Shown one piece after another: positions 12,278 through 27,373 of a stretch of DNA of 32,414 nucleotides (position 1 is its first letter; the number at the start of each line of letters is the position of its first letter). This DNA is from Acidobacteriota bacterium (lineage in GTDB: Bacteria > Acidobacteriota > Terriglobia > Acidiferrales > UBA7541), in contig JACQDH010000187.1 in NCBI GenBank assembly GCA_016201215.1, positions 1-32,414 on the forward strand, read 5' to 3'. Position numbers and translations under genes: made by a program. Below the pieces are notes generated by a model. That model saw only the letters and a program-made list of their open reading frames with translations, was not told where the DNA came from and did no database searches.

Positions 12278-13437
<1,160 letters not shown>

Positions 13438-13438
<1 letters not shown>

Positions 13439-13878
13439 TGACGGTGGACGTTCGGGAAGCAAAGGAAGTAAAGGACGTGAAGGAAGCTGAGGAAAGGGCA
13501 GCGCGCGCTGGTCCCGTCAGGAACTATACAGACCTCTTGGTCTATAAGCAGGCGTATCGCCTGGCATTGGAGGTTTCTGAGCTTGCGCGCACCTTCCCCC
13601 GGCAAGAACAGTACGAACTCGGCCGCCAACTCCGCAATTCGTCACGATCCGTCGCGGCGAATATCGTGGAGGGTTGGGCGAAACGCAACTCTGCTGCTGA
13701 GTTCAAGAGGCATCTGCTCATCGCCAACGGTGAAGCTTCTGAGACAAGGTTTTGGCTCGATTTGGCCGCTGATGAAGGCTGCGCGCGGAAAGAGCGATGC
13801 GAGACATTGAAGGCTGGCTACGGCAAGTTAGGGATGATGATTCACAATTTATGGAAGGAATGGCGGAAGTTTCCGTGA
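13438..13878 (+). CDS. Four-helix-bundle protein of the S23 / 23S rRNA intervening-sequence (IVP) family
   Basis: A 146-residue protein. From residue 29 it matches the S23/IVP pattern: [60 protein letters not shown], then a long helical tail. Homologues occur inside 23S rRNA intervening sequences and as free-standing genes, and the fold is shared with the Avd accessory protein of diversity-generating retroelements; the function is unknown. The first 28 residues (with [14 protein letters not shown]) are not family sequence: they are translated from the left purine-rich repeat. The ATG at 13438 overlaps the sucC stop (TGATG); a TTG three bases earlier is the alternative. The gene splits sucC from sucD and is bracketed by inverted repeats, which suggests an inserted element (inference). 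Confidence 0.87.
13455..13484 (+). repeat. Left purine-rich inverted repeat flanking the IVP gene
   Basis: A 30-base GA-rich tract built of GGAAGT/AAAGGA-like words. It matches the reverse complement of 13887-13916 in 26 of 30 positions. It lies inside the 5' end of the IVP reading frame and encodes its Glu/Lys/Val-rich N-terminus. Confidence 0.6.
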
Positions 13879-13886
13879 GGTCCTGA

Positions 13887-13916
13887 TCCTTTATGTCCTT
13901 TACCTCCTTTACTTCC
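13887..13916 (-). repeat. Right purine-rich inverted repeat flanking the IVP gene
   Basis: The reverse-complement partner of 13455-13484 (26/30 identical). It begins 8 bases after the IVP stop and ends 14 bases before the sucD ATG, so on the coding strand the sucD leader is pyrimidine-rich. A third similar tract lies at 17686-17719. Confidence 0.6.
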
Positions 13917-13930
13917 TCTACCTCACTCAG

Positions 13931-14815
13931 ATGAGCATACTTGTTGACGAGAGTTCGAGGGTGGTCGTGCAGGGTTTGACCGGGCGCGAGGGCAGCTTCC
14001 ACGCGCAGCAGATGATCGAGTACGGCACGAAAGTCGTGGCCGGGGTCACTCCGGGCAAGGGCGGCACCAAACACCTCGAGGTGCCCGTGTTCAACACCCT
14101 CGCCGAGGCCGTGTGCGAAACCGGCGCGAATGCTTCGGTGATTTTCGTGCCGCCCGCGTATGCGGCTGACGCCATCCTGGAAGCGACGGACGCAGGCCTG
14201 CCCCTGGTGGTCTGCATCACCGAGGGCATCCCCACGCTGGACATGGTGCGCGTGGCCGCAGCGCTGCAGGGCGGTCGTACGCGCCTGATCGGTCCCAACT
14301 GCCCGGGCATCATCTCGCCGGGCAAATGCAAGATCGGGATCATGCCCGGGCGCATCCACAGGCAAGGACACGTTGGCGTGGTCAGCCGCAGCGGCACGCT
14401 CACTTACGAGGCGGTGGATCAACTGACGCGCCTTGGCATCGGACAATCCACCTGCATCGGCATCGGCGGCGACCCGATCATCGGTACGACGTTTCTCGAC
14501 GCCATTCGCCTGTTTAACGAGGACCCGGAGACGCACGCGATCGTGATGATCGGCGAAATCGGCGGCAATGCCGAAGAACGCGCGGCAGAATTCATCCAGG
14601 CGAACGTGCGCAAGCCCGTGGTGGGCTTCGTCGCCGGGCAGACCGCGCCGCCGGGCCGCCGCATGGGCCACGCCGGCGCAATCATCAGCGGCGGTCAGGG
14701 CACCGCGAAAGAAAAGTACGCGGCAATGGCCGCCGCGGGGATTCACTGCATCCAAAGTCCCGCGGAAATCGGGCACACCGTGGCTGCCGCGCTCGGCAAA
14801 GCCGTAGCAAAGTAG
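13931..14815 (+). CDS. sucD: Succinyl-CoA ligase alpha subunit
   Basis: A 294-residue CoA-binding subunit that carries the phosphohistidine intermediate. The N-terminal Rossmann domain has [15 protein letters not shown] and [16 protein letters not shown] lies in the middle, and the active-site His247 is in [14 protein letters not shown]. The length is normal. The ATG at 13931 follows a pyrimidine-rich stretch (the right repeat) and has no Shine-Dalgarno sequence. It is separated from sucC by the IVP gene and a 52-base spacer. It should still act with SucC; whether the spacing alters subunit balance cannot be seen from sequence. Confidence 0.96.
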
Positions 14816-16321: not shown

Positions 16322-17683
16322 ATGACGCAATTCCAACTCAACTTGGCGCCCGAGCGAAAAGTCTTGTCGGTCAGCGAGCTGACCGGGCGCATCCGCGACC
16401 TGCTTGCGCGGGAATTCATCGACATCTGGGTGGAAGGCGAAATCTCCAATTGCCACGCGGCGCAGTCCGGCCACTTGTACTTCACACTCAAGGACGCCAA
16501 GGCGCAGGTGCGCTGCGTTTGTTTCCGCAATCAGGTGCGCCTGCTGAAGTTCCGCCCCGAGGACGGCCTGCACGTCACCGTGCGCGGCTCGATCAGTGTC
16601 TATGAGCCGCGCGGGGAATACCAGATCTACGTCGAGCACATCGAGCCGGTGGGCATGGGCGCGCTGCGACTGGCTTTCGAGCAGCTCAAGAAGCGCCTGG
16701 AAGCCGAAGGCCTGTTCGATCCGGCGGTGAAGAAACCCCTGCCCGTGCTGCCGCGGCGCATCGGGCTGGTCACTTCGCCGCGGGGCGCGGCGGTGCGCGA
16801 CGTCGTGCGCATCCTCCGCCGCAGGTTCCCCAACGTCCATTTGATTCTTTATCCCGTGCGCGTGCAGGGCGAAGGCGCCGCCGGCGAAATCGTCGAAGCC
16901 GTCAAGTTTTTCAACCGCAAGCAACTGGCCGACGTGCTGATCCTGGCGCGCGGTGGCGGCTCGCTCGAAGACCTCTGGGCTTTCAACGAAGAAAGCCTCG
17001 CGCGGGCCATCCGCGCCTCCACGATTCCCATCATCACGGGCGTGGGCCACGAGACCGATTTCACCATCGCGGACTTTGCCGCCGATGTGCGCGCCTCCAC
17101 GCCCTCGGCTGCAGCCGAGCTCGTGGTGCAGACGCGGCAGGAGTTCGACCGCCACATCGCGCAACTTCAGCACAAAATGGTTCAGCGGATGCGCTACCTG
17201 CTGCTCGAGTGGCGCCACCGGCTGCAGGAGCTCGCCGCCCATCCCGGTTTTCAGCGGCTGGAGGACCTGCTGCGGCTGAACCGCCAGCAGACCGATGAGC
17301 TGGTCGCGCGATTGGGCGTGGCGCTGCAAGGGCGTCTCGAGCGGCTGCGACGGCGGTTCACCGTGGCGCAGACGCGGATCGTGGCGTTTGACCTGCGCGC
17401 GCGCATCGCCGCGCTGCGCTTGCGCCTGGAGCAGCGCGCCGGCGACCTGCAGGTGCGCGCCGAACGGTTCCTGGTCGGGAAACGCCAGCGGCTGGAGCGA
17501 TTGATGTTGCAACTCGACGAGCGCAGCCCGCTGCGCGTGCTCGAACGCGGCTACGCCATCGTCTATGACGCCGCCGGCAACGTCGTGCGTGCCGTCGAGC
17601 AGGTGGCCATCGGTGATGAAATCGCGATCCAGCTTGCCCGCGGCCGCCTGGGGGCGGAAGTGAAGAGGAAGGAGGGGGAGTAG
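16322..17683 (+). CDS. xseA: Exodeoxyribonuclease VII large subunit
   Basis: A 453-residue nuclease subunit that, with several XseB subunits, degrades single-stranded DNA from both ends. The N-terminal OB fold includes FIDIWVEGEISNCH and SGHLYFTLKD. The catalytic domain has RIGLVTSPRGAAVRDV, LILARGGGSLEDLWAFNEE and ITGVGHETDFTIADF, then STPSAAAE. A long helical, coiled-coil-like region rich in Arg/Leu follows, ending in PLRVLERGYAIV. I chose the ATG at 16322 (MTQFQLNLAPERKVLSVSEL); a TTG at 16286 is possible. No xseB follows; a purine-rich repeat and a hairpin lie after the stop. It is convergent with lepA. Confidence 0.95.
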   Translation: MTQFQLNLAPERKVLSVSELTGRIRDLLAREFIDIWVEGEISNCHAAQSGHLYFTLKDAKAQVRCVCFRNQVRLLKFRPEDGLHVTVRGSISVYEPRGEYQIYVEHIEPVGMGALRLAFEQLKKRLEAEGLFDPAVKKPLPVLPRRIGLVTSPRGAAVRDVVRILRRRFPNVHLILYPVRVQGEGAAGEIVEAVKFFNRKQLADVLILARGGGSLEDLWAFNEESLARAIRASTIPIITGVGHETDFTIADFAADVRASTPSAAAELVVQTRQEFDRHIAQLQHKMVQRMRYLLLEWRHRLQELAAHPGFQRLEDLLRLNRQQTDELVARLGVALQGRLERLRRRFTVAQTRIVAFDLRARIAALRLRLEQRAGDLQVRAERFLVGKRQRLERLMLQLDERSPLRVLERGYAIVYDAAGNVVRAVEQVAIGDEIAIQLARGRLGAEVKRKEGE

Positions 17684-17685
17684 GC

Positions 17686-17719
17686 GAAGTAGAGGAAGTC
17701 AGGGAGGCAGAGGAAGTGG
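17686..17719 (+). repeat. Stand-alone copy of the IVP-flanking purine repeat
   Basis: This 34-base GA-rich tract begins 2 bases after the xseA stop. It matches the minus strand of 13891-13924 in 26 of 34 positions, with 13 of the first 14 identical (GAAGTAGAGGAAGT here). No IVP gene is attached. Low complexity weakens the match. Confidence 0.45.
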
Positions 17720-24613: not shown

Positions 24614-24658
24614 AAGATGAAAACCTAGAGTTGAGATGGGCGGCCGCAACTGGCCTGA

Positions 24659-24689
24659 AACTGATAACGGATGACTGAGAACTGATAAC
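24659..24689 (+). repeat. Short direct repeat before the hydratase gene
   Basis: AACTGATAAC occurs at 24659-24668 and again at 24680-24689, with further ACTGA words between and after. It is AT-rich filler in the 97-base spacer, not a recognised operator. Confidence 0.35.
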
Positions 24690-24710
24690 TGAAGACGGAG
24701 CTGGAATCTT

Positions 24711-26776: not shown

Positions 26777-27373
26777 ATGGACGTGGACAAGATTGTGCGA
26801 CGCAGCTTGACGGGATTTGCCCTGGCCGGCCTGTTGGCAGTCGGCGGGTGGGCCCAAAGCCAGGGAGGCTCGGGTACCGGTTCCGAATCTAGCAAGCCGA
26901 CTACTCCGCCCGCCGCATCCGGCGACGTCAAGCAGGACACCAAGGAGATCCGCCAAGACCGGCGCGATATCCGGCGCGACCGCCGCGACATTCACAAGGA
27001 CAAGCAGGATATTCGCAGTGACAAGCGGGATATCCGCAGCGACCGGCGCGACGTGCGGGCCGACCGCCGCGACATTCGCAGCGACAAGCGCGACATCAAA
27101 GAAGACAAGGCCCAGCTCAAGTCCGACGTCGCCAAGTACGGCAAGAACAGCGACCAGGCCAAGGCCGACCGCAAAGATATCCGCTCTGACCGCAAGGATA
27201 TCGCCAAGGACGCGAAGGACGTTCGTGCCGACAGGCGCGACATCCATGAAGACCGCAAGGACCTGAAGGCAGATGTGAAGGATCTCCACAAGGACCGCAA
27301 GGACATCAAGTCCGACAAGCGCGACCTGCGGCACGACAAGCGGAAGCGCCGCCACGACCGCGCAAGCCAGTAA
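26777..27373 (+). CDS. Secreted polyampholyte of 20 in-register seven-residue repeats, function unknown
   Basis: A 198-residue protein. Residues 1-26 form a signal peptide (basic start, FALAGLLAVGG core, cleavage after GWA before Gln27). A Ser/Gly/Pro/Thr linker (27-49) leads to residues 50-189: 140 residues that keep an exact 7-residue phase, with consensus D-(I/L/V)-(R/K)-x-D-(R/K)-(R/K), for example DIRSDKR DIRSDRR. Residues 120-133 break the motif but not the phase. On a helical wheel Asp1 and Asp5 form one stripe, Arg3, Arg6 and Arg7 the opposite face, and a single hydrophobic residue per turn-pair a seam. This is not a standard a/d coiled coil. An AAGGAG lies 8 bases before the ATG, and a strong terminator follows. 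It is monocistronic. I do not know its function; stress protection or surface interaction is conjecture. Confidence 0.85.
   Translation: MDVDKIVRRSLTGFALAGLLAVGGWAQSQGGSGTGSESSKPTTPPAASGDVKQDTKEIRQDRRDIRRDRRDIHKDKQDIRSDKRDIRSDRRDVRADRRDIRSDKRDIKEDKAQLKSDVAKYGKNSDQAKADRKDIRSDRKDIAKDAKDVRADRRDIHEDRKDLKADVKDLHKDRKDIKSDKRDLRHDKRKRRHDRASQ

Follow-up and report, generated by a model that had tools for sequence, protein, structure and literature searches.

In the 32,414-nt stretch of an Acidobacteriota genome analysed here (the window), sucC (positions 12278–13438, forward strand; ATP-grasp_2 and Ligase_CoA domains) and sucD (13931–14815, forward strand; CoA_binding and Ligase_CoA domains) are spaced 495 nt apart; among the 30 sucC loci that we read, 25 have a spacing of 8 nt. 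The inserted cassette occupies the forward strand from the sucC stop, which adjoins it, to the sucD start (13439–13930, about 490 nt). It contains an ORF (13438–13878, forward strand; true start uncertain) that matches the 23S_rRNA_IVP (IVP/S23) family in profile searches (PF05635, E = 2.1e−27; TIGR02436, 7.3e−28), with the domain located at 13531–13845. Scores exceed the curated cut-offs for both PF05635 (95.9 bits vs 33.8) and TIGR02436 (97 vs 24). Together with the domains of sucC and sucD, these matches bear out the sequence-only reading of the locus, which had placed an IVP gene between the two. The cassette is flanked by protein genes and does not lie inside a 23S rRNA gene.

The ORF is bracketed by two arrays of a 9-nt unit, GTAAAGGAN, as defined by Tandem Repeats Finder. 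According to a relaxed scan, the left array, composed of units of the type G(T/C)A(A/G)AGGAN, covers positions 13450–13493 on the forward strand, and the right array, built from the same unit on the reverse strand, covers 13887–13930. The arms initially recognised within them (13455–13484 and 13887–13916) match each other in inverted orientation at 26 of 30 positions, corresponding to a score of 18. This score was never reached when both flanks were dinucleotide-shuffled 1000 times (maximum 13) or when shuffling was kept inside the purine-rich tracts (2000 times, maximum 14), so that the inverted repeat is real and shuffled purine tracts do not yield it. Chance or low complexity as the source of the inverted match is excluded by both kinds of shuffles and by the swapped partners considered below. 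The initial description of a roughly 460-base element with terminal inverted repeats needs to be amended in part: the bracketing stands, but the ends are arrays of 9-nt units rather than a plain terminal inverted repeat, and the element extends over about 490 nt. The relaxed scan detected three arrays of the 9-nt unit in the window, namely, the two arms and an IVP-less array on the forward strand (17680–17714) at the stop codon (17681–17683) of the exonuclease VII large subunit gene; no such arrays were present in five letter shuffles or in the reversed window. Two tandem arrays of other kinds are also found in the window. One is a 7-nt-type array (CTGATAA / AACTGA; 24655–24700) between the genes for 3-hydroxyacyl-CoA dehydrogenase and enoyl-CoA hydratase, which resembles the TAACTGA heptamer described in the text of PMC4679880. 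The other consists of 6.7 copies of a 21-nt unit (26957–27096).

The IVP protein of the window is predicted to be a four-helix bundle (AlphaFold2 with a 33-row alignment; mean pLDDT 89, pTM 0.75). The best PDB match of the model is 2gsc_B (TM 0.71/0.87), and Foldseek ranks the IVP structures 2gsc and 2rld first, followed by the Avd chains 8ub7_C and 4dwl_D. NF033474 is matched at 1e−5, below the cut-off of that profile. Pfam matches of the ORF between the arms are limited to IVP and bAvd, with no Y1 or other catalytic family among them, and no transposase or nuclease is encoded in the cassette.

The sequence-only reading took the left repeat to encode the first 28 residues of the protein. This is doubtful, as in the relatives G002, G005 and G014, read by eye, an ATG stands directly 3′ of the left arm; the translated left repeat is probably an artefact of start-codon choice. 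The position of the ATG right behind the arm in these relatives suggests that the arm could act as a ribosome site, and the left arm may supply a GGAGG/AAAGGA-like sequence. In the window, the position aligned to this ATG (13495–13497) reads AGG, which means that translation must begin upstream, at GTG 13477 or ATG 13438, or is impaired.

IVP is present in 64 of the 121 genomes of the class that were searched, the source genome (G000) included. Among the matches listed, 119 IVP genes were recovered, two of which were dropped for a flank shorter than 150 nt, leaving 117 genes from 51 genomes. Using as a criterion the best ungapped inverted match between the left and right flanks with a score of at least 14, we found inverted arms around 94 of the 117 genes, as compared to 0 of 234 shuffles, 7 of 583 swapped partners and 3 of 117 for direct repeats. 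The other 23 IVP genes have no inverted repeat at this score. Non-IVP genes of the same loci are rarely bracketed (9 of 223), and none of those in the 240–700 bp range is (0 of 43). As to the proposed check for the same inverted repeat at other IVP genes, the arrangement recurs, but the sequence is specific to the element.

The period of the arms is 7 or 14 in 80 of the 94 elements, 8 in eight, 9 in four and different in the remaining two. In register, the arms of a given element have a median identity of 89%, compared with 81% when shifted by one unit and 79% between neighbouring units within one arm; the arm–arm identity is the higher one in 80 of 86 elements. Judging by this in-register likeness, the arms look like block copies of each other, with the unit-order permutation test being significant in just 12 of 80 single elements. 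Unit similarity climbs with IVP identity (Mantel rho 0.15, compared with at most 0.09 in 300 permutations). Among pairs without homologous neighbours, the unit is shared by 42% of those with IVP identity of at least 70% (n = 12), by 35% at 60–70% (n = 51) and by 0.4% below 40% (n = 2374). Seven of the pairs listed occupy the same site in the congeners G093 and G100; the IVPs are 90–93% identical in three of them and 65–77% identical in the other four. Neighbours of the four diverged pairs are 83–98% identical, and in some of these pairs the arms have changed together. Same sites with similar or almost identical neighbours, but diverged IVP and arms, were noted for L088/L107, L089/L085 and L090/L099 of these two genomes. 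Judging from sequence comparison, the G093/G100 cassettes seem to have been replaced or exchanged, or else to be fast-evolving.

Left arms usually adjoin the stop codon of an upstream gene. In 59 of 91 elements, the start of the left arm falls −12 to +20 nt from the stop codon of a sense ORF with 100 codons or more (control, 95 of 1820), and in 35 of 93 elements the right arm ends, by the same measure, at the stop codon of an antisense ORF that converges on it (control, 139 of 1860). Gene neighbours were delineated by a simple codon-score caller that gives rough start codons. Between co-directional neighbours, the IVP gene is in the sense direction in 78 cases and in the antisense direction in 12; of 149 pairs of adjacent non-IVP genes in these loci, 118 share one direction. 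Purine-rich left arms are found in 76 elements of the class and pyrimidine-rich ones in 16.

To look beyond the class, we used a set obtained by searching with the Xanthomonas homologue. The best 80 of 571 loci come from many phyla and include one archaeal record; three loci were dropped because of a short flank, and 77 were usable. An inverted repeat is present in 51 of the 77, as opposed to 10 of 381 for the swapped-partner control and 10 of 77 for direct repeats, and in 47 of 73 when only one of the five Xanthomonas loci, which are near-copies, is kept. The remaining 26 IVP genes lack an inverted repeat with a score of at least 14. Direct repeats at 10 of the 77 loci indicate that tandem arrays near IVP genes are not always inverted. 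Direct rather than inverted repeats were rejected as the characteristic arrangement, at 3 of 117 in the class but 10 of 77 in the multi-phylum set. In the multi-phylum set, the left arm lies at the upstream stop in 34 of 50 cases (control, 39 of 1000), the right arm meets the stop codon of a converging ORF on the antisense strand in 11 of 50 (control, 17 of 1000), and purine-rich left arms outnumber pyrimidine-rich ones 44 to 3. The arm unit GGGAATC is found in all five Xanthomonas IVP genes read, and arms of the GGGAATC type are also found in Dokdonella fugitiva, Luteimonas and Solimonas. Among cyanobacterial plasmid IVP loci, for which flanks in 8 of 31 records were examined, six of the eight have an inverted score of at least 14. 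The record of an ANME-1 archaeon (L235) contains an IVP homologue with an inverted-repeat score of 16.

Of 59 genomes in which sucC is present, 30 were read at the sucC–sucD junction. In addition to the 25 loci with the 8-nt spacing, three have the cassette (G000, G002 and G005) and two have longer IVP-less gaps. One of these gaps, in G001, is 67 nt long and matches the arms of the element in G014, and that in G013 (123 nt) is similar by eye; the array pattern has no match in the G013 genome. Within genus g2, where sucC is 95–98% identical, the site is filled in G002 and empty in G014 and G024. G014 instead has an IVP gene, 92% identical to that of G002, directly behind the recR stop, whereas the recR locus of G002 (recR 96% identical to that of G014) has no IVP. 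The recR locus was read in eight genomes, of which the incomplete locus of G000 was set aside; by eye, it also lacks IVP in G001, G005, G018, G011 and G012. In G086, a different IVP (37% identical to that of the window) with different arms occupies the same sucCD junction, and further IVP genes are located behind sucD in G002, G018, G073 and G027. The relatives thus do not all carry the gene at this site, and the empty sites, together with IVP genes elsewhere that have inverted repeats far above controls, speak for the mobile or transferable cassette proposed from the letters of the window.

Filled and unfilled sites are also seen on cyanobacterial plasmids. The Anabaena 90 plasmid carries an IVP gene between cas6 and cas4, whereas the Dolichospermum plasmid, 98.9% identical to it where aligned, has no IVP between these genes; the latter is not a clean empty site because 245 nt of other sequence separate its cas6 and cas4. 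In Nostoc UHCC 0302 (75% identical), cas6 and cas4 are 23 nt apart, and two more comparisons of plasmids with and without the gene are available at about 89% identity. By eye, there is no clear target-site duplication at the sucCD or plasmid sites; a possible ATGA duplication at sucCD, likewise seen by eye, is inconsistent among G000, G001, G002 and G005. IVP genes lie between cas6 and cas4 on plasmids of both Anabaena sp. 90 (L295) and Pseudanabaena galeata (L318), with different repeat units; they may be relevant to the IVP that a figure legend of PMC10910872 names as CRISPR-linked.

Two IVP genes were found in the source genome (3.29 Mb, 80.55% complete). The second one (L001; G000:C262, 1415–1875) is located between two CoA_trans (CoA-transferase) genes and has inverted arms of a 7-nt unit (TCAGCTA type) unrelated to the arms in the window. 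Both genes split two adjacent genes, and their ends have the plan in common while differing in sequence. The source genome also has IVP-less 9-nt arrays at several other places, one of which is a convergent pair (C158).

The pattern of the 9-nt array matches 31 of 73 genomes, with a single match overall for the reversed control; the counts are of pattern matches, which overlap within one array. The median is 20 in the nine genomes that have an IVP sharing 50% identity or more with that of the window (including G093, with 52% over 81 residues) and 0 in the 64 others (p = 0.001, with counts that ignore phylogeny). Within the family (7 vs 38 genomes), the contrast has a p of 0.003 for counts that likewise ignore phylogeny. 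On the other hand, 24 of the 64 genomes without such an IVP still have array matches, G016 has 13 of them and no IVP match, and G018 and G093 have an IVP above the 50% threshold yet zero matches. When any IVP is counted, arrays are matched in 21 of 41 genomes with IVP and 10 of 32 without (Fisher p = 0.10). Five close opposite-strand array pairs were found among the matches listed, all of them convergent.

In our view, these observations are best explained, with a probability of about 0.6, by a minimal mobile DNA cassette composed of an IVP/S23 gene and inverted arrays of short units, with IVP binding its own arrays and catalysis provided from elsewhere. In such a scenario, the cassette would insert as DNA at intergenic junctions, typically right behind the stop of the upstream gene and in the sense direction. 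A sense insertion behind a stop codon would allow the host operon to transcribe the cassette. The IVP protein would then bind its own array at both ends and bring the ends together, and a host or unrelated enzyme would cut and join. IVP-less arrays may be decayed or trans-mobilised derivatives, and the 23S rRNA intervening sequences (IVSs) may be the same cassette landed in rRNA. The parts of this scenario are not equally firm. That the cassette is mobile as DNA has good support from sequence comparison. Comparison between genomes likewise establishes the anatomy of the cassettes, its generality, the placement at stop codons, the sense bias, the empty and filled sites and the related copies at different sites. 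It also establishes the correlation between unit and protein and the enrichment of IVP-less arrays and convergent pairs in genomes with a related IVP.

Regarding the catalytic partner, two candidates were considered. RT-driven retrohoming is disfavoured: IVP and RT counts are uncorrelated (rho 0.12, p 0.31), 25 of the 41 IVP genomes have no RVT_1 match, and none was found at E ≤ 1e−6 in the source genome, a draft that is 80.55% complete. Among genomes with at least five IVP matches, RVT_1 is absent from G002, G073, G085, G087, G089 and G096 and present in G014, G093 and G100. Y1_Tnp matches were found in 38 of 41 IVP genomes vs 21 of 32 without IVP (Fisher p = 0.006 over 73 genomes, a comparison that ignores completeness and phylogeny). 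As an obligatory partner, the Y1 transposase was rejected, given a weak association of counts (rho 0.33, p 0.004) and three counter-examples, G037, G081 and G092, which have IVP but no Y1_Tnp match; G092 is listed as 100% complete and has four IVP matches.

Alternatively, the arrays might constitute an independent dispersed repeat or hairpin, propagated by slippage, recombination or a Y1-type transposase, with IVP genes merely sitting in the loops. Such an origin would fit the wide occurrence of IVP-less arrays, including the genomes in which no IVP was detected, the uniformly convergent orientation of the close array pairs listed, and the more frequent Y1_Tnp matches in IVP genomes. Nevertheless, we regard it as unlikely, because the unit tracks IVP relatedness even where neighbours are not shared, arms seldom surround non-IVP genes, 9-nt arrays are enriched in genomes with a related IVP, and the three genomes named above have IVP in spite of lacking a Y1_Tnp match.

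The arms could also be thought to act in RNA, forming a stem in the operon mRNA that would be cut by RNase III to free the IVP transcript, in which case the pairing would be under selection. The predominance of the sense orientation agrees with this possibility, as does the Coxiella IVS, which according to the text of PMC4990558 has the same anatomy (S23 ORF, 28-bp terminal inverted repeat, heptamers GACAGAT). However, the expected excess of G-U over A-C among arm mismatches is absent: the counts are 91 vs 84 in the class, 19 vs 39 in the multi-phylum set (the reverse, p 0.01; four of the five Xanthomonas loci left out) and 110 vs 123 combined. This indicates that the arms match as DNA. Since IVP-less arrays and the diversity of units would also be left unexplained, we consider a role of this kind improbable, more so than that of an independent repeat. 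Finally, an ordinary, vertically inherited host gene of the sucCD operon with incidental low-complexity flanks is hardly credible: although the insertion is common to G000, G002 and G005, which represent three genera, IVP divergence is near that of sucC, and purifying selection is evident (dN/dS ≤ 0.125 in five of six computable pairs out of nine tried, 0.58 in the sixth), most sucCD loci are empty, the site is filled or empty within one genus with a 92%-identical copy elsewhere, and shuffles do not yield the arm match.

Several components of the mobile cassette are already known separately: IVSs with S23 (in Coxiella also with heptamers), heptamer arrays, and the kinship of IVP and Avd, described in PMC10053308. 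The IVS in the 23S rRNA of Coxiella burnetii (428–444 nt) is described in PMC4990558 as having an S23p ORF, a terminal stem of 28 bp and tandem GACAGAT heptamers before the ORF, and as being excised by RNase III. In the same text, the Xanthomonas IVP homologue is reported to be a homopentamer, S23p proteins are said to have no known function in spite of available structures, and IVSs to be of unclear functionality and origin. The heptamers and the terminal stem of Coxiella place rRNA IVSs and IVP cassettes side by side. As for dispersed heptamers, Rehm et al. (PMC4692102) describe the GGGAATC repeats of Xanthomonas as scattered, often forming convergent pairs, lying near stop codons and generally showing no link to mobile elements. 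The same source describes a dispersed GGGGA(T/C)T heptamer in Nostoc; PMC4679880 reports TAACTGA in Beggiatoaceae, and PMC2700814 heptanucleotide elements, some of them paired, in Geobacter metallireducens. In the texts of these three papers, such repeats are interpreted as quadruplexes, as translational sites or as sites of regulator binding. The main text of PMC4692102 does not mention XCC0516, S23, 23S, intervening sequences or four-helix proteins, that of PMC4679880 mentions none of S23, 23S, intervening sequences or four-helix proteins, and the text of PMC2700814 neither S23 nor four-helix. In the open-access PMC literature, supplements aside, we found no work joining IVP genes outside rRNA with tandem-repeat arms.

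The survey ties IVP genes to the heptamer arrays of Xanthomonas, Nostoc, Beggiatoaceae and Geobacter, for which unrelated explanations had been given, and IVP cassettes may account for puzzling repeat arrays in several bacteria. We tentatively propose, at somewhat less than even odds, that the cassettes represent a pan-bacterial class of mobile DNA with fast-evolving inverted tandem ends, and that these ends are recognised by an Avd-like ring protein, itself non-catalytic, which diversifies together with its own repeat. This class would be the source of the dispersed heptamer arrays in Xanthomonas and others, and IVSs would be cassettes landed in rRNA. From the survey follow a concrete prediction, namely, binding of every IVP to its own array, and a direct way of testing where IVSs come from.

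The cassettes can be compared with several known systems. In REP/REPIN elements with the RAYT (Y1) transposase, one protein gene is flanked by inverted repeats and protein-less copies are dispersed elsewhere in the genome. The IVP cassettes share both properties, but IVP matches no Y1 family, and the arms are built from many unrelated tandem units rather than from one palindrome family. From conventional IS elements and MITEs they differ in that units vary between elements, as reflected in the 7 of 583 swapped partners, and only close relatives tend to share a unit. With Avd of diversity-generating retroelements the likeness is in the fold (8ub7_C and 4dwl_D in Foldseek), whereas no RT was matched in the source draft or in 25 of the 41 IVP genomes. 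Dispersed heptamers of Xanthomonas, Nostoc, Beggiatoaceae and Geobacter resemble the arms, as far as the cited texts describe them, in being short tandem arrays in largely intergenic positions. The Coxiella IVS, as portrayed in PMC4990558, is similar in its single IVP/S23 ORF, terminal inverted repeat, upstream tandem heptamers, size and suspected mobile nature, but it is located in 23S rRNA, from which RNase III excises it, whereas the cassette of the window, with its 9-nt unit, is situated between protein genes and has arms with no RNA-pairing bias.
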